Origin: Deltaproteobacteria bacterium
GTDB taxonomy: Bacteria; Desulfobacterota; Desulfarculia; Desulfarculales; Desulfarculaceae
Direction: 5' to 3'
DNA length: 38,852 bases
Assembly: GCA_021811275.1 (NCBI GenBank)
Contig: JAJZPI010000014.1
Span: forward strand, 1-38,852
Shown: positions 27,030 to 38,852 of the stretch, in pieces
Layout of the letters: each line of letters starts with the position of its first letter
Position numbering within the stretch: the stretch's first letter is position 1
The notes under the pieces: generated by a model
Databases searched by the model: none
What the model was told of the DNA's origin: nothing
What the model saw: the letters and a program-made list of their open reading frames with translations, nothing else
Translations under genes and position numbers: made by a program

Positions 27030-28469
27030 CTACTGCGGCCCGCGGGCCAGGCCGGCCGCGACGCGCGCCGCCGGAGCGGCTTCGACCTGCTCCTCCCAAC
27101 CCCCGCCAAGAGCCCGGTAAAGCTCGACCACGGACTTGACTCTGTCCCAGGCCACGCGCGAAAGGTCGATCTCGGCCGAATAGAGCTGGCGCTGGGCGTC
27201 CAGGACTTCCAGGTAGTTCACTATGCCGGCCCGAAAGCGCAAGGCGGCCACGTTCGCCATGTCCCGGGCGGTATCGACCCGCGTCTGCTGCTGGGCGATC
27301 TCCGCCGTCAGCCGTTCGTGCCCGGTCAGGGCGTCGGCCACCTCCCTCAGGGCCTGCAAGATGGCCTTGGCGTAGGAGATGGCCGCTTGCTGGGCCTGGG
27401 CTTCGGCCTTGTCCACCGCCGCCGCGCCCCTCCCGAAGTCCAAAAGCGGCCAGTTCAGGGTCGGCCCCAAGGAGGGAATGTCGTCATCGCGGAACTTGAG
27501 CAGCCGCCCCAGGTCGGTGCTGGTCTGGCCGAAAAAGCCGGTTAGCCCGATGGTGGGAAAGGGGAAGGAGCCGGCCTTCACCGCGCCGATGTTGGCCGTG
27601 GCCGCGGCCAGCTTCTGCTCGGCCTGTCTGATGTCCGGGCGGCGCTCCAGAAGCGCCGAGGGCAACCCGGCGGGGATGGCGGGGGCCAGGTCCAGAGGAG
27701 CGCTCGCCGCCGAGCGGGCCAGGACTCCGGGATGCCTGCCCAGCAGCAAGCACAGCTTGTTCTCCTGGGCGGCCAGGTTCTTTTCCAGGGCGTGCACGTT
27801 GGCCGCGGTGGTGGCCAGCTGGTTGGCGGCCTGCAGTTGTTCCGCCCGGGATACGGTGCCGGCCCTCTTCATCAGGTCCACCAGCTTGAGCGAGCTTTCA
27901 AGGCTGGCCACCGTGCCTCGGGTGATGGCCAGTTGCTCGTCCAGGGCGCGCAGGTCGAACCAGGCCTGAGCCACGTCCCTGACCAGGCTGGTGACCACGG
28001 CCCGGCGGCCCTCCTCGCTGGCCAACATTCGAGCCTGGGCCGCCTCCGAGGAACGGCGCAGCCGGCCGAAGAAGTCCAGCTCCCAGGCCATTTGCAAACC
28101 CAACATGTAAGTGGAGCCCGCGGGGCTGTCCGAACTGAAGGGCTTGGGCTGGGTGGTGCCGTAGCCACCCACCGAGGGGAAAAGATCGGCCCCGGCCGAT
28201 CTGGCCTGGGCCCTGGCTTCCAAGAGCTGGGCCGCAGCCAGCCTGAGGTCGTGGTTGTTGGCCAGCGCTTCGCGCAGGATGGCCTGCAGCTCCCGGTCCT
28301 GGAACAGCTCCCACCACTTGAGCTGGGCCAAGGAGCGGTTGTCCTGGCCGGCGGGCTGGCCCCGGAAGTAATCGGGCAGGCTGGCGGCCGGTCTTTCGTA
28401 GTCCGGGCCCACCGCGCAGGCGCCGAGCCAAAGCGCGGCCAGGGCCAGGCACAGGCAGCGGGCTTTCAT
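27030..28469 (-). CDS. Outer membrane efflux lipoprotein, NodT/TolC family
   Basis: The 479-residue protein is the outer membrane channel of the second tripartite pump. It begins with a lipoprotein signal with Cys18 in LGAC, followed by AVGPDYERPAASLPDYF, typical of NodT-type factors (OprM-like). Later segments such as SAGADLFPSVGGYG, the PNTL-like ERRPDIRQAEQKLAAATANIGA and LNWPLLDFGRG are OprM/NodT hallmarks. The ATG overlaps the permease stop (ATGA). The frame is open further upstream, but that part overlaps the permease gene and lacks similarity. It is the last gene of the operon. Confidence 0.95.
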   Translation of the reverse strand: MKARCLCLALAALWLGACAVGPDYERPAASLPDYFRGQPAGQDNRSLAQLKWWELFQDRELQAILREALANNHDLRLAAAQLLEARAQARSAGADLFPSVGGYGTTQPKPFSSDSPAGSTYMLGLQMAWELDFFGRLRRSSEAAQARMLASEEGRRAVVTSLVRDVAQAWFDLRALDEQLAITRGTVASLESSLKLVDLMKRAGTVSRAEQLQAANQLATTAANVHALEKNLAAQENKLCLLLGRHPGVLARSAASAPLDLAPAIPAGLPSALLERRPDIRQAEQKLAAATANIGAVKAGSFPFPTIGLTGFFGQTSTDLGRLLKFRDDDIPSLGPTLNWPLLDFGRGAAAVDKAEAQAQQAAISYAKAILQALREVADALTGHERLTAEIAQQQTRVDTARDMANVAALRFRAGIVNYLEVLDAQRQLYSAEIDLSRVAWDRVKSVVELYRALGGGWEEQVEAAPAARVAAGLARGPQ

Positions 28470-31400
28470 GGCCGCGCCCCTTTCCCGGTCGCCCCGGCCT
28501 GCGGCGCTGCCCGCTCCCGACGCCTCCGTTCGGCCAGACGCTCGATGACCACGAAGAGTACTGGCACCAGGAAGATGGCCAGCGCGGTGGCCGCGGTCAT
28601 GCCGCCGAAGACCGAGGTGCCCAGGGCGTGGCGTGAGCCGGCCCCGGCTCCGCTGGCCACCACCAGGGGGACCACGCCCAGTATGAAGGCGAAGGAGGTC
28701 ATGAGGATGGGCCTCAAACGAATGCGGCTGGCCTCGACCGCGGCCTCCGCCAAGTCCATGCCGTGCTCGCGCCGGACCTTGGCGAACTCCACGATGAGAA
28801 TGGCATTCTTGGCCGCCAGACCGATCAGGGTCACCAAGCCGATCTGGGCGTAGACGTTGTTCTCCAGCCCGCGCAGCCACTGGGCGCCCATGGCTCCAAA
28901 AACCCCCAGGGGCACGGCCAGGATGACCGCGAAGGGCACCGACCAGCTTTCGTAGAGCGCGGCCAGGAACATGAAGACGAAGACCGCGGCCAGGGCGAAG
29001 ATCATGGGGGCCTGGCCCCCGGATTCGATTTCCTGGGCGGAGATGCCCGACCACTCATAGGCGTAAGTGCGGGGCAGTTCCTTGGCCGCCACCTCCTCCA
29101 GGGCCCGGATGGCCTGGCCGGAACTGTAGCCCTGGGCCGCGCCGCCACCGATCTCGGCGGTGCGGTAAAGGTTGTAACGCTTGATGGCCGTGGCCCCGCT
29201 GTCGGGCTTGGCGGTGATCAGGGTGGAAAGCGGCACCATGCTTCCACCGGAGCTGCGCACGTAGAGGTCGCGGAATGACTCCACATCGCTGCGGTAGGAA
29301 GGCTCCGCCTGCATGGTGACCTTGTAGGTCTTGCCGAAGCGGTTGAAGTCGTTGATGTTGAGCCCGCCCAGGAAGGTTTGCAGGGAGTTGAAAACCCCCG
29401 ACACCGGCACGCCGAGCTTCTTGGCCTTCTCCCTATCCACCACCAGCCTCACCGAGGGAACATTGGCCTTGAAGTTGGAGTAGATCATGCCGATCTCCGG
29501 CCGCCGCCGGGCCGCCTGCACGAACCGGCCCGCCATCGCCGCCAGTTCCTCGGGGGTGCCTCCGCCGCGGTCCTCCAGCATCAGGGAGAAGCCGCCGGTG
29601 CTGCCCAGGCCGGGCAAGGGGGGCGGGCTCACGGCGAAGACCGTGGCCTCCATCACGCCTTGGGTGGCCCGACGGGCGGCGTCCAAAACCGCCGGCAGGC
29701 TTTGGGTCGGGTCCTTGCGCTGGCCCCAGGGCTTGAGCTTGACCACCACCAGGGCGTTGTTGGAGGATTGGGAGCCCGTGAGAATGTTGTAGCCGGAGAC
29801 GGTGATGATATCCTCCACGCCGGGCAGGGCCCGGATGATCTCGTCGACCTTGGCGGCCACGGCCACGGTGCGGCCCAGGGCGGCGGCCGGGGGCAGTTCA
29901 ATGGCGCAGAAAAAGTAGCCCTGGTCCTCGTCGGGCACGAAGCCGGTGGGCAGGATCTTGAGCAGGCCCGCCGTGGCCAGGACCAGTACCCCCAAGGTCA
30001 GCAAGACCAGTACCGAACGCTTCACGCATCGGCGCACTCCCTCGGTGTAGCGGCGGGTGATGCGGTCGAAGGCGTCGTTGAAGGCATGGAAGAACCGGGC
30101 CAGGGGCCCTGAGGAGGCGCCGTGCGCCGCCGGCTTGAGCAGCATGGCGCACAGGGCCGGGGTGAGCGACAGGGCCACGAAGGCCGACAGGAGCACCGAG
30201 ACGGCCACCGTTACCGCGAACTGCTGGTAGAGCTTGCCGGTGATGCCGCCCAGGAAGGCCACCGGCACGAAGACCGCCGCCAGGATCAGGGCGATGGCCA
30301 CCACCGGTCCCGAGACCTCCTCCATGGCCTTATAGGTGGCCTCCTTGGGCCCCAGCCCGCCCTGATGCATGTGCAGCTCCACCGCCTCCACCACCACGAT
30401 GGCGTCGTCGACCACGATACCGATGGCCAGCACCATGCCGAACATGGTCAGGGTGTTCACGGAAAAGCCCAGGACCTGAAAGGCCGCGAAGGTGCCCAGC
30501 AGGGAGACCGGCACCGCCAGCATGGGCACCAGTGTGGCCCGCCAGCTTTGCAGGAAGATGAACACCACCAAAAGCACCAGGCCCATGGCTTCCAAGAAGG
30601 TGCTGAGCACCTCCTCCAGCGAGGCCTTCACGAAATCCGTGGTGTCGACAAGGATCTTGTGGGACAGGTCGGGCGGGAAGCGGGCGGCCAGGCGCTCCAG
30701 CTCCTGTTGGGCCAAGCCCGCGGTCTCGATGGCGTTGGCTCCCGGGCTGGTGTAGACGGAGATGATGTTGCTGGGTCTACCGTTGAAGGTGCTGACGGCG
30801 TTGTAGTCCTTGGCCCCTAGCTCGATGCGGGCGATGTCGCGCAGGCGCACGAAGGAGCCGTCGGGCTGGGAGCGGATGATGATGTCGGCGAACTCCTCGG
30901 CCTCCACCAGGCGTCCCTTGACCCGCACCGTGTATTGGAAGGCCTGGCTGGGCGGGGCGGGGGATTGGCCGATCTGGCCGGCCGGGGCCAGCACGTTCTG
31001 CTCCTTCACCGCACTCAGCACATCATCGGCGGTGATCCCCAGGCCGGCCATCTTGTCCGGCCGCAACCAGACGCGCATGCCGAACTCCGAACCGAACATG
31101 CTCACGCTGCCCACGCCTTTGACCCGGCCCAGGGCATCGATGATGTTCACGCTGGCGTAGTTGTCCAAAAACAGGCTGTCCAGGGTGCCGCCCGGCGAAT
31201 AGAGGCAAATGTACATCAGCACGTCGGGGGACTGCTTCTTGACCGTGATGCCGTTTTCGAGGACATCCTGGGGCAGGTTGGACTGGGCCACCGAGACCCG
31301 GTTCTGCACCTCCACCGCCGCCAGGTCCACCGGGCGGTCCATGCCGAAGGTGACATCTATGACCGACATGCCATCGCTGGAGCTTAGGGAGGACATGTAG

Positions 31401-31627
31401 AGCATGCCCTGGGCGCCGTTGATCTCCTTTTCCAGAGAGGCTGCCACCGAGGCCTCGGCCACGTCGGCGCTGGCCCCCGGATAGACGCCCGTCACCCGCA
31501 CCGTGGGCAGGCTGATCTGGGGATACTGGGCCACCGGCAGTGACCTGAGCGAAAGCACTCCCAGCAGGCAAAAAAAGATCGAGATGACCATGGCGAAGAC
31601 TGGGCGATCGATGAAGAACCTGGCCAT
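28466..31627 (-). CDS. RND efflux permease, AcrB/MexB type (HAE1)
   Basis: This 1053-residue inner-membrane proton antiporter closely follows AcrB in length and numbering. It starts MARFFIDRPVFAMVISI, like AcrB, and the TM4 relay is Asp407-Asp408 in GIVVDDAIVVVEAVE. Family landmarks include LPVAQYPQISLP, GVGSVSMFGSEFGMRVWLRPDKMAGLG and the TM10-12 block GLAAKNAILIVEFAK. Such pumps export drugs, dyes and detergents; the substrate here is unknown. It sits between the adaptor (nine-base gap) and the outer membrane factor (overlap). Confidence 0.96.
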   Translation of the reverse strand: MARFFIDRPVFAMVISIFFCLLGVLSLRSLPVAQYPQISLPTVRVTGVYPGASADVAEASVAASLEKEINGAQGMLYMSSLSSSDGMSVIDVTFGMDRPVDLAAVEVQNRVSVAQSNLPQDVLENGITVKKQSPDVLMYICLYSPGGTLDSLFLDNYASVNIIDALGRVKGVGSVSMFGSEFGMRVWLRPDKMAGLGITADDVLSAVKEQNVLAPAGQIGQSPAPPSQAFQYTVRVKGRLVEAEEFADIIIRSQPDGSFVRLRDIARIELGAKDYNAVSTFNGRPSNIISVYTSPGANAIETAGLAQQELERLAARFPPDLSHKILVDTTDFVKASLEEVLSTFLEAMGLVLLVVFIFLQSWRATLVPMLAVPVSLLGTFAAFQVLGFSVNTLTMFGMVLAIGIVVDDAIVVVEAVELHMHQGGLGPKEATYKAMEEVSGPVVAIALILAAVFVPVAFLGGITGKLYQQFAVTVAVSVLLSAFVALSLTPALCAMLLKPAAHGASSGPLARFFHAFNDAFDRITRRYTEGVRRCVKRSVLVLLTLGVLVLATAGLLKILPTGFVPDEDQGYFFCAIELPPAAALGRTVAVAAKVDEIIRALPGVEDIITVSGYNILTGSQSSNNALVVVKLKPWGQRKDPTQSLPAVLDAARRATQGVMEATVFAVSPPPLPGLGSTGGFSLMLEDRGGGTPEELAAMAGRFVQAARRRPEIGMIYSNFKANVPSVRLVVDREKAKKLGVPVSGVFNSLQTFLGGLNINDFNRFGKTYKVTMQAEPSYRSDVESFRDLYVRSSGGSMVPLSTLITAKPDSGATAIKRYNLYRTAEIGGGAAQGYSSGQAIRALEEVAAKELPRTYAYEWSGISAQEIESGGQAPMIFALAAVFVFMFLAALYESWSVPFAVILAVPLGVFGAMGAQWLRGLENNVYAQIGLVTLIGLAAKNAILIVEFAKVRREHGMDLAEAAVEASRIRLRPILMTSFAFILGVVPLVVASGAGAGSRHALGTSVFGGMTAATALAIFLVPVLFVVIERLAERRRRERAAPQAGATGKGARP

Positions 31628-31636
31628 GCCCGCGCC

Positions 31637-32812
31637 TCACTTGGCCTGGGGGCCGGCGGGCTGGTCGTCCATCATCTTGACCTTGACCGGGGTTCCCGGC
31701 TGGGCCTTTTGCATGCCTTCCACCACCACCCTTTGGCCGACGCGAAGGCCCTGTTCGATCACCCATTCACTCCCCACCCGCGGGCCGACCGTCACCGAGG
31801 CCGACCGGGCCCTGTCCTGCTCGTCGATCACCGTCACGAAGTACTTGCCCAGCACCTCTTGCACCGCCTTTTGGGGCACCGCGATGGTGTTCGGCAAAGC
31901 CTCGTACTCCACCCGGATCTTGCCGAAGAGGCCGGGGCGCAGGATGCCGTCCGGGTTGGGGAAGCGGGCCCGCACCGTCAGGCTGCCGGTCTGGGCTGAG
32001 ACCGCGCGGTCGATGAAATCGAAACGCCCCTTGGCGGGATATGCTGAATCGTCAGCCAGAATCAGGGTGACCGGCGTGACGCCATTCTTGCGTTTGCCGC
32101 CGCCGGCAAGGGTACGCTTCATGAAGTTGAGGTAGTCGCGCTCGCTTAAGCTGCAATAGAAATAGACCGGATCATCGACCGAGATGGTGGCCAGCACCGT
32201 TTGGCCGGACTGCACCAAGCCCCCCACCAGCAAGCCAGCCCGGCCGATGGTCCCGGTTATGGGGGCATTGATGGTGGTGTCGTCCAGATTGAGCTGGGCC
32301 TGGACCAAGGCCGCGCGGGCTGACTCCAGGCCGGCGGCGGCTTGGCTTTCGGCCGAGATGGCGTTGTCCATGGTCTGCTTGCTCACCGCATCGGCTTCCA
32401 CCAGAACCCTGTAGCGCTCCACGTCCTGGCGCGCCTTTATCAAGGACGCCTCGCTTTGGGCCAGCTTGCCCCTGGCGTCAGCCAGGGCGGCCTGGTAGGG
32501 ACGGCTGTCTATCACGAAAAGGGGCGCGCCCTTTTTCACCAAAGCGCCATCCTCGAAGAGCTTTTTTTCCAATATTCCGCCGACCTTGGCCCGCAGCTCC
32601 ACTTCATGCGAGGATTCCACCTGCCCCACCATGTCGGAGATGAGCGGCACGGTCTTGGGGCGCACGGTTATGGCCTGTACTTCCACCGCCTCGGCCGGGG
32701 CGTTTGCGGAATCGCTGCCGCAAGCGTTGAGCGCGCCCACGCTGAAGAGGGCCAGGATCAGAGCCGCAAAGCGCCGGCGATGACGAACGATGACCTGGCT
32801 GCCTGACGACAT
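31637..32812 (-). CDS. RND efflux periplasmic adaptor lipoprotein, AcrA/MexA type
   Basis: The 391-residue adaptor has a lipoprotein signal with Cys31 in LNAC. The lipoyl halves (SSHEVELRAKVGGILEKKLFEDGALVKKG and INAPITGTIGRAGLLVGGLVQSG) flank a coiled-coil hairpin with ARGKLAQSEASLIKARQDVERY. C-terminal beta-barrel strands include VRARFPNPDGILRPGLFGKIRV and VPQKAVQEVLGKYFV. Codons upstream of the chosen ATG do not encode a signal-like segment. It is the first gene of the second RND operon; its start diverges from the bza-type operon 564 bp away. Confidence 0.94.
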   Translation of the reverse strand: MSSGSQVIVRHRRRFAALILALFSVGALNACGSDSANAPAEAVEVQAITVRPKTVPLISDMVGQVESSHEVELRAKVGGILEKKLFEDGALVKKGAPLFVIDSRPYQAALADARGKLAQSEASLIKARQDVERYRVLVEADAVSKQTMDNAISAESQAAAGLESARAALVQAQLNLDDTTINAPITGTIGRAGLLVGGLVQSGQTVLATISVDDPVYFYCSLSERDYLNFMKRTLAGGGKRKNGVTPVTLILADDSAYPAKGRFDFIDRAVSAQTGSLTVRARFPNPDGILRPGLFGKIRVEYEALPNTIAVPQKAVQEVLGKYFVTVIDEQDRARSASVTVGPRVGSEWVIEQGLRVGQRVVVEGMQKAQPGTPVKVKMMDDQPAGPQAK

Positions 32813-33045
32813 GATTGTTCCCTGCCTTGGTGAAACGTTTGCCTCGGGGCTGCCGGCGCGTGGTCGCCAGCCGGATGGCGGACGCGCGATCTTCAGGGCA
32901 TGGGCGCCGACCGATGATCCCACGCCTTGTCCTGGGGGCGGACGATGGAGCAAAGATCATGGAATTTCCTGTTTTGAAAGCATGGTAATCCAGGGCGGCA
33001 AGGCCCGTCAATCAATGCCTGCCGTTGCCCAGTCCGGCAAACGCC
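32813..33045. other. Divergent intergenic region, efflux side
   Basis: About 230 bases upstream of the RND adaptor gene, divergent from the B12-riboswitch operon. No reading frame here resembles a known family. A regulator gene, often found beside acrAB-type operons, is absent. The leftward promoter must lie here but no clear -35/-10 pair was recognised. Confidence 0.4.
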
Positions 33046-33074: not shown

Positions 33075-33092
33075 GGTCGAAATTTGATCGGG

Positions 33093-33263
33093 CGGCTGGC
33101 AGGCGGCCCCAGGGCCTCAATAGGGAAGCCGGTGCGATTCCGGCGCGGACCCGCCGCTGTGACCGGGGACGAAACCCGCAATAGGCCACTGCTCCGCGCA
33201 AGCGGAGTGGGAAGGCGCGGGCGGTAGGATGAACCGGGAGTCAGAAGACCTGCCTTCCAGCCG
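33093..33263 (+). ncRNA. Cobalamin riboswitch
   Basis: Several conserved blocks of the B12 aptamer appear in order: AGGGAAGCCGGTG near 33120, a GCGGACCCGCCGCTGTGA region, GGCCACTG, a hairpin of CTCCGC and GCGGAG, GGGAAGG, and the closing GTCAGAAGACCTGCC. The outer stem pairs CGGCTGG at 33093-33099 with CCAGCCG at 33257-33263, with GCAGG and CCTGC pairing next to it. The switch ends ~110 bases before the ThiC-like gene. A GACGC/GCGTC hairpin and a CCGGG/CCCGG pair in between could form the expression platform. Binding of adenosyl- or methylcobalamin normally represses the downstream genes. Confidence 0.92.
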
Positions 33264-33376
33264 GCGACCGGGGAGATGGTAAATCCTCGCGACGCATTGC
33301 GTCCGGGGATTATTTCTTTTCCCGGGCCTCTCCCAGCTCCGTTCTTCAATCCTTACGGGTAACAAGGAGGAGAACC

Positions 33377-34687
33377 ATGGCCACCCAGGTCGAGCTGGCG
33401 GTTAAAGGAACCATCACCCCTCAGATGAAGGAGATCGCCCTGGCCGAGGGGTTGGACCCGGAAACCATCCGGGCGCGTTTCGCCGAGGGCCAGATCGTGG
33501 CCCCCATCGGCGTCAACCACCGCCACCAAGTGGTTGGCATGGGCAGGGGGCTGAGCACCAAGATCAACGCCTCCATCGGCACCTCCACCGACATCGTCGA
33601 TATCGCCGCCGAGGTGCGCAAGGCCCAGGCCGCCCAGGCCGCCGGGGCCGACACCCTGATGGAACTGTCCGTGGGCGGCGACCTGGACAAGGTGCGGCGC
33701 GAGGTGCTGGCCGCGGTAAGCCTGCCCGTGGGCAACGTGCCTCTGTACCAGGCCTTCTGCGAGGCCGCCCGCAAGTACGGCGACCCCAACAAGCTCGACG
33801 AGGGGATGCTCTTCGACCTCATCGAGCGCCAGTGCGCCGATGGCATCGCCTTCATGGCCGTGCACTGCGGCATCAATCTCTACACCATCGAGCGCCTGGA
33901 AAAGCAGCACTACCGCTACGGCGGCCTGGTGAGCAAGGGCGGCACCACCATGGTGGCCTGGATGAAAAAAAACCACCGCGAGAACCCGCTCTACGAAAAG
34001 TTCGACCGCGTGGTGGAGATACTCAAGAAGTACGACGTGGTGCTTTCCCTGGGCAACGGCCTGCGCGCCGGGGCCATCCACGACTCCTTCGACCGGGCCA
34101 TGATCCAGGAACTGCTCATTAACTGCGAGCTGGCCCAGATCGGCCGCGAGATGGGCTGCCAGATGATGGTCGAAGGCCCGGGCCACGTGCCCCTGGACGA
34201 GATCGAGGCCAACATCATCTTGCAAAAGCGCATGAGCAACCACGCGCCCTACTACATGCTGGGCCCCATCCCCTGCGACGTGACCGCCGGCTACGACCAC
34301 ATCACCGCCGCCATCGGCGCGGCCCAGAGCGCCCGCTACGGTGCGGACCTTATCTGCTACATCACCCCGGCCGAGCACTTGGCCCTGCCCAACGAGCGCG
34401 ACGTGGTGGAGGGCGTCAAGGCCGCGCGCGTGGCGGCCTACATCGGCGACACCGCCAAGTATCCGGAGCGGGGCCGGCGGCGGGACATGGCCATGAGCAA
34501 GGCCCGGCGCGACTCGAACTGGAACAAGCAGTATGAGCTGGCCCTGTTCAGCGCCGACGCCCAGGCCATCCGCAGCGAGCGCAGCCCCTCCGACTCCCGG
34601 GCCTGCACCATGTGCGGCGAGTTCTGCGCCAACAGGGGCAGCATGGAGGTCTTCGGCCACCTGTTGGCGGGCACAGCCAAGGCCTGA
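33377..34687 (+). CDS. bzaF: ThiC-family 5-hydroxybenzimidazole synthase (BzaF-like)
   Basis: BzaF, a paralogue of ThiC, converts aminoimidazole ribotide to 5-hydroxybenzimidazole by radical SAM chemistry, the first step to the B12 lower ligand under anaerobic conditions. The 436-residue protein has the ThiC fold, with EGPGHVPLDEIEANI at 266-280, LGPIPCDVTAGYDHITAAIG at 295-314 (ThiC has TDIAPGYDH) and CYITPAEHLALPN. The C-terminal [4Fe-4S] cysteines are Cys410, Cys413 and Cys417, CTMCGEFC, spaced x2 and x3 where ThiC has x2 and x4. A cobalamin switch, not a thiamine one, precedes it, and methyltransferase and radical SAM genes follow. AAGGAGG lies six bases before the ATG. The BzaF call rests on context and motif variation; ThiC itself is the alternative. 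Confidence 0.85.
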   Translation: MATQVELAVKGTITPQMKEIALAEGLDPETIRARFAEGQIVAPIGVNHRHQVVGMGRGLSTKINASIGTSTDIVDIAAEVRKAQAAQAAGADTLMELSVGGDLDKVRREVLAAVSLPVGNVPLYQAFCEAARKYGDPNKLDEGMLFDLIERQCADGIAFMAVHCGINLYTIERLEKQHYRYGGLVSKGGTTMVAWMKKNHRENPLYEKFDRVVEILKKYDVVLSLGNGLRAGAIHDSFDRAMIQELLINCELAQIGREMGCQMMVEGPGHVPLDEIEANIILQKRMSNHAPYYMLGPIPCDVTAGYDHITAAIGAAQSARYGADLICYITPAEHLALPNERDVVEGVKAARVAAYIGDTAKYPERGRRRDMAMSKARRDSNWNKQYELALFSADAQAIRSERSPSDSRACTMCGEFCANRGSMEVFGHLLAGTAKA

Positions 34688-34691
34688 GCGC

Positions 34692-36275
34692 ATGGGCGAA
34701 GCGGACGTCAAGCCCGGTTCCGGGGAACGCCAAGGCCACCAGGGCTTCCAGCTCCTGGAGAACCTAGCCACGGCGCATTGGCGCTCGGAAGTCCTCTTCG
34801 CCGCCCTGGACCTGGACATCTTCGCCCGGCTGGGCCATGAGGACCGCGGCGCGGAGGAACTAGGCCAGGCCGAGGGCTGGGACGCCGAAGCCCTGGGCCG
34901 GCTCCTGGAGGCGCTCGTCGATCTGGGGCTGTTGGTGAAAGCCCAAGGCCGCTTCGCCAACAGCCCCCTGGCCGCCCGCCACCTGCTGCCTGAAAGCCCG
35001 GACTACCTGGGCGGGTTCCTGGCCTACCGGCGCTACATCGCGCCGCATTGGCGGCGCCTGTCCGAGCGGGTCTGTCGCGGCCCCCGGGCCAACGACCGTC
35101 CCCTCGACGAGGACGAGCCGGCCTATGCCGAGCGTGTGGAGGCCTACGTGCGCGCCCTGGACGCCCAGGCCCGGCTCAAGGCGGCCGAGGCCGTGGGGCG
35201 CCTGGCCCTGCTGCTGGACAAGCCTCCCGCGCATGTCCTGGACCTGGGCGGCGGAGCCGGGGCCTGGTGCCGGGCGGCCCTGGCCAGGTGGCCCCATGCC
35301 AAGGCGGTCTTGGCGGACCTGCCTGAGGTGATCGCCGCCGCCGAGCGCCTTTATCCCTTCGAGGAGCACTGGCGCGGAGCGGAGCGCCTGGCAGGGGACT
35401 GCCTGGCGCCGGGACTCTGGCAGGCGCTCTCCAGCCGGCGCTTCGGGCTGGTGATTATCTCCAACCTGCTCCACGCCTATGGCGAAGAAGAGGCCCGGGG
35501 CATCCTGGCCAAGGCGGCGAGGCTGCTGACCCCCGGCGGCGCCCTGGTCATCCACGACTATCTCAAGGAGCAGCCGGGCGGAGATCCGCTCAAGGGCCGA
35601 CTCTACGACCTGCACATGCTGCTCAACACCTACAACGGCCGCATCCACGGCCTGGGGAAACTGAGCGGGATGCTCAGCCTAGCGGGACTCCCCGGCTGGC
35701 GGCTGATCAACCTCACCAGCGACACCTCCCTCATAGTGGCCCAGGCCGGGGCGGGGGGCCCGGCGATCCTGGCCAACGAGAACCTGCTGGTGCTCAAGGC
35801 GCGAGAGCTGGGCTTTGAGCAGGCCAAGGTGATCCCAAGCCGCGAGGTTCGCGTTGAGCCCTGGGTGCGCCTGAAGTGCCGCAACGGCTGCGCCCAATAC
35901 GACAATCGCCTGCAATGCCCTCCCTACACCCCCGACCACCAGGAGATGGCGGCCGTTCTGTCGACCTACAAGAAGGCGCTCCTGGTGCAGGGAACCCCGC
36001 CAGGGCCGGACTTCCACCAACGGTTGCTGGCCCTGGAGCGGCATTGCTTCCTGGCTGGCTATCACAAGGCCCTGGCCTTTGGCGCAGGCCCCTGCCCTCT
36101 CTGCGACAAGTGTGACGTCAGCGCGCCTTGTCGCTTCCCGCGCCGGGCCAGGCCGTCCCTGGAGGCCTGCGGTGTGGATGTCTACCAGACGGTCAGGAAC
36201 GCGGGCTGGGAACTGGAGCCGGTTCGGGACCTGGACGGCTACGTGAAATTCTTCGGAATGGTGCTGCTAGATTGA
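34692..36275 (+). CDS. bzaC: BzaC-like O-methyltransferase fused to a DUF2284-like Cys-rich domain
   Basis: The 527-residue protein has a winged-helix dimerisation domain (20-100) and a SAM-dependent O-methyltransferase domain (110-355) with motif I VLDLGGGAGAW at 182-192. In the bza pathway BzaC methylates the 5-hydroxyl of 5-hydroxybenzimidazole. Residues about 363-525 add a domain that resembles DUF2284: Cys396, Cys400 and Cys409 in LKCRNGCAQYDN-RLQCPPYTP, then Cys468, Cys471, Cys474 and Cys480, followed by RARPSLEACGVDV. Such cysteines suggest iron-sulfur binding. Its start lies four bases after the bzaF stop. Known BzaC proteins are about 340 residues, so the fusion is unusual. Confidence 0.85.
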   Translation: MGEADVKPGSGERQGHQGFQLLENLATAHWRSEVLFAALDLDIFARLGHEDRGAEELGQAEGWDAEALGRLLEALVDLGLLVKAQGRFANSPLAARHLLPESPDYLGGFLAYRRYIAPHWRRLSERVCRGPRANDRPLDEDEPAYAERVEAYVRALDAQARLKAAEAVGRLALLLDKPPAHVLDLGGGAGAWCRAALARWPHAKAVLADLPEVIAAAERLYPFEEHWRGAERLAGDCLAPGLWQALSSRRFGLVIISNLLHAYGEEEARGILAKAARLLTPGGALVIHDYLKEQPGGDPLKGRLYDLHMLLNTYNGRIHGLGKLSGMLSLAGLPGWRLINLTSDTSLIVAQAGAGGPAILANENLLVLKARELGFEQAKVIPSREVRVEPWVRLKCRNGCAQYDNRLQCPPYTPDHQEMAAVLSTYKKALLVQGTPPGPDFHQRLLALERHCFLAGYHKALAFGAGPCPLCDKCDVSAPCRFPRRARPSLEACGVDVYQTVRNAGWELEPVRDLDGYVKFFGMVLLD

Positions 36276-36292: not shown

Positions 36293-37636
36293 ATGCGCGT
36301 GCTGTTGCTCCAGGCTGTTTCCACCATACCGGGTGGGGAGTGCGTCTATCCCTTGGGCCTGGCGCGCCTGGCCGCCATGCTCAAGGGAAAGCATGAACTG
36401 CGCGGCCTGGACCTGAACCTGGCTCCCTACCCCTGGCCGGCGGTTATCGAGGCCGCCGATGGCTTCCAGCCCCAGGCGGTGTGCATCTCCTTCCGCAACC
36501 TCGACCCCCTGGCCGGCAACCTGATTTCCTTCGTGCCGCCACTCAAGACATTGGCTACCTTGCTGCGCCATTGCGCGCCCCGAGCGCGGCTGATCATCGG
36601 CGGCGCGGGCTTCTCGCTCTTCGCCCGTCGTCTGCTGGAGGAGGTCCCGGAGCTGGACTTGGGCCTGATCGGAGAGGCGGAGCAGAGCCTGCCCCTTTTG
36701 CTGCGCCGCCTCGACACCCCGGCTACGGTCCCCGGCGTGGTTCTACGCGGCATGAAAGGCCCTGCCATCGGCGGTCGCTGCCGGGCCCTTGACCTCTCCG
36801 CCCTGTCGCCGCCGGACTATGTCGTATTTCCGCCGGCGGCCTACCAGGCCCGGAACTCCTACGTGGCCAGCATGGGCGTGGAGGCCAAGCGCGGCTGCCC
36901 CCGGCGCTGCTCCTATTGCCTATATCCCAGCCTGCAAGGCGGCGGCCAGCGCCTGTTCCCGCCCGGCGCGGTGGTGGATGAACTGGAGCGGTTGCGCCAC
37001 GGCTACAACGTGAACATGGTTCACTTCACCGACCCGGTGCTCAATCAGCCCGCCGCGCACCTGCGGGCAATCTGCCGAGAAATCATCGGCCGGGGACTCG
37101 CCATTGGCTGGACCGGCTTTTTCCGCGAGGACGGCCTGACCAGCGGGGACCTTGACCTCTACCGGCGGGCCGGCCTGGCTGCCCTGTATTTTTCCGCCGA
37201 CGGGGCCAGCGAGCCGGCCCTCAAGCTTCTCGGCAAAGGCCTCACTCTGGGACAGATCGAGCGGGCGGCCCAACTGGCTGCGGCCAGCGGGGTGATCAGC
37301 GTCTACCACTTCCTGGTCAACCTGCCCTGCGAAACGCCGAACAGCGCCGCGCAGACGAAGCGCCTGGCTGAGCGGATCCTGGAAGATCACGCCAAGGCTG
37401 GCAACCCCGCGGCCATGGTCTTCAACAACCTGCGCCCCTATCCCGGCGCGCCGCTGACGGATTCGCTCTTGGCCGCCGGCCTCCTGGACCGGCGCACAGA
37501 CCTGCTTTACCCGGTCTATTTCAACCCACCGCCCTTCGACGGCCTCAGACACCAACTAAACGCCCTTTGCACCAAACCAGAACATCTGGGCCTGGTCGGC
37601 GGCGAAAGCCCGGGGGTGGTCAAGTGCGCGCCCTGA
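36293..37636 (+). CDS. bzaD: BzaD-like B12-binding radical SAM methyltransferase
   Basis: The 447-residue protein has a Rossmann-like B12-binding-type domain (about 1-160, beginning MRVLLLQAVSTIPGGE and including LIIGGAGFS) and a radical SAM domain with Cys202, Cys206 and Cys209 in CPRRCSYC. BzaD is thought to C-methylate 5-methoxybenzimidazole at position 6. The DxHxxG cobalamin motif is not found, as in other radical SAM proteins that bind B12 base-off without a histidine ligand. It follows the methyltransferase gene by 17 bases and overlaps the next gene by 13. Order in the operon suggests BzaD, but it could be exchanged with BzaE. Confidence 0.82.
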   Translation: MRVLLLQAVSTIPGGECVYPLGLARLAAMLKGKHELRGLDLNLAPYPWPAVIEAADGFQPQAVCISFRNLDPLAGNLISFVPPLKTLATLLRHCAPRARLIIGGAGFSLFARRLLEEVPELDLGLIGEAEQSLPLLLRRLDTPATVPGVVLRGMKGPAIGGRCRALDLSALSPPDYVVFPPAAYQARNSYVASMGVEAKRGCPRRCSYCLYPSLQGGGQRLFPPGAVVDELERLRHGYNVNMVHFTDPVLNQPAAHLRAICREIIGRGLAIGWTGFFREDGLTSGDLDLYRRAGLAALYFSADGASEPALKLLGKGLTLGQIERAAQLAAASGVISVYHFLVNLPCETPNSAAQTKRLAERILEDHAKAGNPAAMVFNNLRPYPGAPLTDSLLAAGLLDRRTDLLYPVYFNPPPFDGLRHQLNALCTKPEHLGLVGGESPGVVKCAP

Positions 37637-38852
37637 TCCTGGAGCATCCCCGGCCGCCCTCGCCGGAGCGCTTCAACGACATCGCCAACACCCCGCTCTC
37701 CTCATGCCTGATGGCTGGCTATGCCTCGTCCTCCCTGGCCGAGGCCGGGTTCGAGACCCCCATCCTGGACGCCCGCCGGCTGGACTTCGCCAGGGTCGAG
37801 CAGCTCATCCTTGATGAGCGGCCCAGTGTCCTGCTGGTCCACGCCGTCTACTTCTGGGAACGCACCGGCGAGCTTTTCGACTCCCTGGCCAGACTCAAGC
37901 AAGCGGGCTTAACCGCCCCCGTCTGTCTTTTCGGGTTCTTCCCTTCGCTGGGTTGGAGCGAGCTGTTGACAGCATGCCCGGCCATTGACTATGTGGTGGT
38001 GGGCGAGCCCGAGCGGACTCTGGTGGAGTTGATGACCGCCTTGCGCGACGGCCGCGACGCCGGGGTTCCGGGCTTGGCCCGGCGCGGGGGCGGCCTTCCG
38101 ATCCTGACCGCCCCGCGCGCCCCCCGCAACAACCTGGACCTCCTGCCCTTCCCCGCCCGGCCCTTCCTGAAACAGGAGAAAACGGTGAGCGTGCAGGCCA
38201 GCCGTGGCTGCTACAACGGCTGCGACTTCTGCCTGGTCCCGGCCCTGGGCGGGGGCGGCAACCCCTGGCGCGGTCGCTCGGTGGACAATGTCGCCCGAGA
38301 AATCGCCCTGCTCAGGGACCAAGGCAAGCGCGACTTCTACTTCGTGGACGCCAACTTCATCGGACCGGGCCGGCGGGGGACGGACAGGACCTTGATGCTG
38401 GCCCAGGCCTTGGCCGGGACGGCTATAACCTTCGGCATGGAGTGCCGGGCCGCCGACGCCCGGCCCGAGTTGATGCAGGCCTTGGCCAGGGTCGGCCTAT
38501 CTTCTTTGCTCCTGGGCTTGGAAAGCGGTAGCCAAGCGGCGTTGAACCGCATGGGCAAGAACAGCACCCCCACCCAAAACCTGGCCGCCATCGATGCCGC
38601 GCGCTCCGCCGGGCTGGAGCCCGAGGTGGGCTTCATCATGTTCGAGCCTGACGCCACCCTGGAGGACCTGGCCGCCAATCTGGCCTTCCTGCGCCGGGCC
38701 CGGCTGCTGGACCGGCTGGGCCGCACCGCCAACCTGCTCCACCACCATCAGATAGCCCTCATGGGCACCAGACTCTACGCCCGGACCCTGGCCGAGGGCC
38801 GCCTGGCGCCTGAAGGGCCGCTGGGCTTCCACGGCCGCCTGGTTTACCGAGA
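37624..38852 (+). CDS. bzaE: BzaE-like B12-binding radical SAM protein (cut by window end)
   Basis: The frame starts at GTG inside the end of bzaD and remains open to the window edge, 409 codons, so the C-terminus is missing. The N-terminus (MRALILEHPRPPSPERFND) and the segment to about 180 look like a B12-binding-type domain, again without DxHxxG. The radical SAM motif is Cys196, Cys200 and Cys203 in SRGCYNGCDFC; LLGLESGSQAALNRMGK and EVGFIMFEPD are typical barrel segments. BzaE makes 5,6-dimethylbenzimidazole from 5-methoxy-6-methylbenzimidazole. The assignment follows the gene order of known bza operons. Confidence 0.8.
   Translation, partial: MRALILEHPRPPSPERFNDIANTPLSSCLMAGYASSSLAEAGFETPILDARRLDFARVEQLILDERPSVLLVHAVYFWERTGELFDSLARLKQAGLTAPVCLFGFFPSLGWSELLTACPAIDYVVVGEPERTLVELMTALRDGRDAGVPGLARRGGGLPILTAPRAPRNNLDLLPFPARPFLKQEKTVSVQASRGCYNGCDFCLVPALGGGGNPWRGRSVDNVAREIALLRDQGKRDFYFVDANFIGPGRRGTDRTLMLAQALAGTAITFGMECRAADARPELMQALARVGLSSLLLGLESGSQAALNRMGKNSTPTQNLAAIDAARSAGLEPEVGFIMFEPDATLEDLAANLAFLRRARLLDRLGRTANLLHHHQIALMGTRLYARTLAEGRLAPEGPLGFHGRLVYR

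Follow-up and report, generated by a model that had tools for sequence, protein, structure and literature searches.

The locus described here raises the question of why a methyltransferase of vitamin B12 lower-ligand synthesis should carry a cysteine-rich DUF2284 domain at its C terminus, and which step of the pathway this domain serves. In the window (the whole stretch of DNA analysed, 38,852 nucleotides), the gene belongs to a riboswitch-controlled bzaF-bzaC-bzaD-bzaE cluster with the following features:

33084..33271, plus strand: cobalamin riboswitch (RF00174), located upstream of bzaF; Rfam score 113.8 bits (gathering 31.5), E 5.7e-28
33377..34687, plus strand: bzaF-like gene, ThiC/BzaA/BzaB/BzaF family (5-hydroxybenzimidazole synthase); PF01964, 584 bits
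34692..36275, plus strand: bzaC, O-methyltransferase and DUF2284 in frame, 527 aa; open reading frame and Pfam, architecture common to 43 other fused loci of the tree
34692..35750, plus strand: methyltransferase (MT) part, residues 1-353; Pfam Dimerisation and Methyltransf_2, PDB relatives
35784..36272, plus strand: DUF2284 domain, residues 365-527 (Pfam match 379-526); PF10050, 142.5 bits, and structure model
35877..35918, plus strand: cysteine motif 1, C396-x3-C400-x8-C409-P-P; 3/3 cysteines invariant in 61 domains
36093..36131, plus strand: cysteine motif 2, C468-x2-C471-x2-C474-x5-C480; first three invariant, C480 in >90% of 61 domains
36293..37636, plus strand: bzaD-like gene, cobalamin-dependent radical SAM; TIGR04385, 386 bits, BzaD clade, SH-aLRT 100
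37624..38852, plus strand: bzaE-like gene for a cobalamin-dependent radical SAM protein, truncated where the contig stops; Pfam Radical_SAM, BzaE clade

The ATG of bzaC at 34692 lies 4 bases past the bzaF stop, and the frame stays open to the stop at 36275. The initial annotation had described a methyltransferase running in frame into a cysteine-rich C-terminal domain, and the open reading frame and Pfam agree on a single 527-aa protein. Pfam places Dimerisation (PF08100) at residues 19-98 and Methyltransf_2 (PF00891) at 152-332 (59.3 bits, cut-off 22.3), and in the PDB the MT part has class I O-methyltransferases as its relatives, among them 3mcz and ASMT (4a6d). Judged by these matches and by its place among bza genes, the gene would be of the BzaC type, a class I O-methyltransferase with a dimerisation domain; an NCBIfam search gave no BzaC match for this or for other BzaC proteins. 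The assignment of the C-terminal domain to PF10050, likewise proposed at the outset, is borne out by a match at residues 379-526 with 142.5 bits against a gathering score of 25 (E 1.3e-41), which covers positions 1-161 of the 161 in the profile. Eight cysteines are found in residues 360-527. Six of these (C396, C400, C409, C468, C471 and C474) are invariant across 61 aligned DUF2284 domains and C480 is present in >90% of them, in agreement with the seven conserved cysteines noted before, while C493 is variable. By score and cysteine pattern, the window protein is a member of PF10050.

In a tree of 95 cobalamin radical SAM proteins, BzaD and BzaE form two clean clades with one window gene in each, so that the radical SAM neighbours of the initial annotation are BzaD-like and BzaE-like, downstream of bzaC, with a ThiC/BzaF-like gene upstream. 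The BzaD-like protein scores 386 bits with TIGR04385, below the cut-off of 450, and shares its clade with members above it; the BzaE-like protein matches Pfam Radical_SAM, with B12-binding just below cut-off. The name bzaF is taken from gene context, the NCBIfam scores of its product being 572 for PRK13352, 532 for thiC and 507 for the BzaB model, the last under the BzaB cut-off. The contig end (37000-38852) overlaps another contig of the same assembly (G000:C27:1-492) with 96.5% identity. The second contig holds the remainder of bzaE, and the two ends are probably strain variants. On the other side of the cluster, divergent genes at 27030-32953 (minus strand) read, from sequence only, as an RND efflux system with a membrane fusion protein, an AcrB-like pump and an outer-membrane factor.

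The fusion recurs well beyond this contig. A search of 40 relatives yielded two further full-length fusions, with identities of 57% and 46%, from a different genus and a different family, and a BzaD-profile scan of 84,980 species' genomes returned 24 bza loci. Among these, every Desulfobacterota-type locus with a visible bzaC has an MT-DUF2284 fusion directly upstream of bzaD. The one Bacillota locus (Candidatus Cryptoclostridium) was taken as a new search centre for its class and phylum, in which all sampled bzaD loci with a visible bzaC are fused except that of Candidatus Cryptoclostridium itself. A BzaC-profile search of both phyla brought in additional fusions together with MT-only genes and a single split form; the plasmids searched held no full-length fusion. 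In total, the survey for bzaC-DUF2284 fusions found 44, in two phyla and nearly always upstream of bzaD/bzaE, and the fusion is therefore how BzaC usually occurs in operons of this kind. Since it recurs in independent genomes, a sequencing error or chance read-through that removed a stop is ruled out, and the fusion is neither a peculiarity of this contig nor an assembly artefact. The fusion is real, conserved and commoner than had been assumed: the earlier premise that BzaC is normally stand-alone is not supported by the sampled bzaD-bearing loci with a visible bzaC, bar the one Bacillota exception in that class and phylum. No mention of DUF2284 on BzaC was found in the literature searched, which left out the primary BzaC papers (Hazra 2015; Mathur 2020). 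In a Desulfobacula MAG, an extra stand-alone DUF2284 gene lies shortly upstream of the fusion (L070:7359-8033).

In the DUF2284 tree, 42 fused domains form essentially one clade, bar three BzaC derivatives nested in it whose methyltransferase is degenerate; this fits a single fusion event with later losses. These losses are visible in the MT tree, where MT-only genes from loci without bzaE nest singly in fused clades in four cases: L025 beside the window gene (support 100/94), L183 beside L178 (100/99), L218 beside L140 (100/98) and L182 beside L132 (100/97). The domain has therefore been lost repeatedly, each time with bzaE, and the methyltransferase persists without DUF2284 after bzaE is gone. 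A genome-wide search for BzaE in G012, G395, G501, G845 and G125 found none. L183 is 96.3% identical in DNA to L178 as far as the MT region extends, similarity returns just past bzaE, and the missing ~2.2 kb is exactly DUF2284 plus bzaE, removed in one deletion that left the methyltransferase nearly unchanged. A tie of DUF2284 to bzaD is weaker than the bzaE link, since L178, L179 and L216 have lost bzaD, kept bzaE and retained DUF2284. In L184 and L185, the MT gene and a BzaE-like gene flank a separate DUF2284 gene, whose domain groups with the stand-alone ones. Operons with bzaE and without bzaD comprise L178, L179 and L216 and the divergent L184, L185, L217 and L219-L221, and may make 5-methylbenzimidazole.

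A strict rule that bzaE requires DUF2284 is ruled out by L079 and the divergent L219-L221, which have bzaE without a fused or adjacent DUF2284 and carry other DUF2284 genes elsewhere in their genomes. Within the core clade, L079 is the only locus that lost DUF2284 and kept bzaE; L219, L220 and L221 have the divergent gene order bzaE-MT-cobT(-bzaF). Conversely, at L215:6852-9359 (genome G195) the gene after the fusion encodes a BzaD that breaks off near residue 250, and G195 holds no BzaE. BzaC-derived proteins of 425-428 aa with a degenerate methyltransferase and DUF2284 are encoded at L126:628-1911, L186:6355-7632, L187:6373-7650 and L190:6179-7453, with no other bza genes adjoining. Rescue of L079 in trans by the L126 protein is possible; it is not claimed here because the same type of BzaC-derived DUF2284 protein occurs in G664, whose genome lacks BzaE. 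Further remnants were seen at L189:6322-7557 (minus strand, G718), where a single 412-aa open reading frame combines in frame a BzaA N terminus (72% identity), an internal CobT segment (74%) and the DUF2284 C terminus of BzaC (67%), likely a deletion scar of a bza operon, and at L188:5271-6809 (plus strand, G566), where the front half of the large subunit of a diol/glycerol dehydratase runs in frame into a BzaC fragment, which is then frameshifted. L188, a pseudogene or misassembly, was excluded from the final counts. At L062:11289-13760 and L066:7318-9699, just before cobT, BzaE is extended at its C terminus by a xylose-isomerase-like TIM barrel (PF01261; these two were tested), and the BzaE lengths of L060 and L063-L065 are similar.

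Among the 46 loci with DUF2284 (44 fused, 2 split), bzaE is in view in 43; L069 and L074 end before the bzaE position and were scored as bzaE present, and one (L215) lacks it. Nine loci have no DUF2284; bzaE is missing from five of them and present in the other four, L079 and L219-L221. Fisher's test gives p 2e-4, uncorrected for ancestry, while phylogenetic pairs give 4.5 concordant, 0 discordant and 1.5 uninformative, with a median sign-test p of 0.06, not below 0.05. Because DUF2284 adjoins bzaD/bzaE and one deletion can take both, co-loss counts for less than separate losses of the two would. What is informative is that an intact methyltransferase is left behind, and that L079 alone in the core clade has kept bzaE but no longer has the domain. 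Loss of the last B12-dependent step has, in most of the bacteria concerned, been accompanied by loss of DUF2284, which suggests that the domain serves that step, and the pattern points to the BzaE step over O-methylation as its context. The link to neighbouring radical SAM enzymes first proposed for this locus is thus narrowed to bzaE by co-loss, as a link supported but not proven.

The structure model of the DUF2284 domain is confident (pLDDT 94.8, pTM 0.89). In the full-length BzaC model, the first cysteine loop has pLDDT <50, and its interdomain geometry is therefore not usable. The conserved cysteine pattern would suit one or two Fe-S clusters. The first 16 Foldseek matches of the domain model in the PDB are all QueG or RdhA chains, with E 0.096-0.99, none <0.001, and a TM-score of up to 0.50. 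Profile-profile comparison with QueG/RdhA gives a short N-terminal match of 19-21 columns, where both domains begin, at 7-21% probability; the QueG profile score of 27.5 exceeds all 200 of 200 column shuffles (mean 12.8, maximum 20.4). No credible PDB sequence relatives of DUF2284 were found, and a search of a viral fold library gave no match. The tandem CxxCxxCxxxCP ferredoxin motif that follows the cobalamin domain in QueG/RdhA is absent from DUF2284, in which the cysteine order differs, and this resemblance in predicted structure is a lead and not membership. Epoxyqueuosine reductase (QueG) and reductive dehalogenase (RdhA) are reductases with cobalamin and a double [4Fe-4S] centre. There is a small chance that DUF2284 is a compact relative of their fold with Fe-S clusters that reduces cobalamin for a B12-dependent radical SAM enzyme; if true, enzymes of this class would have an electron donor of their own, and the DUF2284 family would have its first function.

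The replacement of a methoxy by a methyl group is formally reductive, and cobalamin radical SAM methylases consume one electron in cleaving SAM; an Fe-S module on the enzyme that supplies the methoxy group would fit as both electron donor and delivery partner of BzaE. A further electron is required by these methylases for restoring cob(I)alamin (PMC13331322). In the order of gene products, the methoxy group comes from BzaC, the 6-methyl from BzaD, and DMB is the product of BzaE (PMC6461909, PMC8123684). Our preferred reading, with a probability of roughly 45%, is that DUF2284 is an iron-sulfur redox module supporting BzaE, while the N-terminal half of BzaC methylates the 5-OH of the benzimidazole precursor. 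The module would probably hold one [4Fe-4S] cluster on C468/C471/C474/C480, with a second, possibly open, cluster site on C396/C400/C409, and would support the last, reductive step, which falls to BzaE as a cobalamin-dependent radical SAM enzyme. In the simplest case, electrons would pass from DUF2284 to the cobalamin or cluster of BzaE while BzaC hands over its methoxy product.

Other explanations account for part of the same evidence. DUF2284 is covalently attached to the methyltransferase in nearly all loci, and DUF2284-methyltransferase fusions occur outside bza (NCBIfam ArsM_DUF2284_UU and MbdU), as expected of a metal or Fe-S domain that aids the methyltransferase itself, be it in dimer formation, regiospecificity or substrate hold. 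This is doubtful, however, as several lineages keep an MT-only BzaC, the one form seen in bza operons that have no radical SAM genes, and the L183 enzyme hardly changed once its domain was deleted. There is a small chance that the domain is a docking or channelling platform that keeps BzaC beside BzaD/BzaE, with a structural metal site and no redox work. The genetic evidence for such a platform is identical to that for an Fe-S redox module, and covalent fusion and adjacent genes suit tethering, but six invariant cysteines, their ferredoxin-like spacing and the Fe-S reductase fold lead suggest more than a structural role. Finally, the bzaE link could be positional, deletions of bzaD/bzaE also taking the 3' end of bzaC, and the function of DUF2284 unrelated. 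The single deletion in L183 and the scars L188 and L189, which show bza operons decaying by deletion, are in line with this; yet the deletions stop past an intact, maintained methyltransferase in four separate lineages, and L079 is alone in the core clade in having lost the domain with bzaE kept, which makes a purely positional link quite improbable.

The fusion places the widespread, uncharacterised cysteine-rich DUF2284 family in a definite pathway, with BzaE as a partner open to testing, and bears on how BzaE swaps methoxy for methyl and what reduces such enzymes in the cell. It also helps in predicting lower ligands from genomes, where BzaC without DUF2284 would tend to mark pathways ending at 5-methoxybenzimidazole.

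Compared with known systems, the window domain scores above the Pfam cut-off of PF10050 and has all conserved cysteines of the family, most members of which are, unlike it, stand-alone proteins of about 170-260 aa. Stand-alone DUF2284 is widespread without bza genes, and its neighbours gave nothing consistent from which to read a function. QueG and RdhA share a weak fold similarity with the DUF2284 model, with no significant E-value, but the C-terminal two-cluster ferredoxin motif is theirs and the DUF2284 cysteines lie elsewhere in the chain. ArsM_DUF2284_UU (NF041536), listed as a methyltransferase-DUF2284 fusion (PMC13188914), and MbdU (NF045648) carry DUF2284 at the C terminus, as in the window BzaC, but their members are selenoproteins with a methyltransferase of a different family. 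The window BzaC belongs to neither, with 120.5 bits against 575 needed and 109.9 against 600, respectively, in both cases through the DUF2284 part only. A further close counterpart is BzaC as known, which O-methylates 5-hydroxybenzimidazole in the anaerobic synthesis of the B12 lower ligand. The characterised M. thermoacetica enzyme, which we take to come from an operon without bzaD/bzaE, is predicted to be MT-only, and the BzaC proteins of E. limosum and A. woodii are predicted to be fused. BzaC and the window protein have the Methyltransf_2 fold in common and a gene placed between bzaF or bzaAB/cobT and bzaD/bzaE; the window protein differs from BzaC as known in carrying DUF2284.
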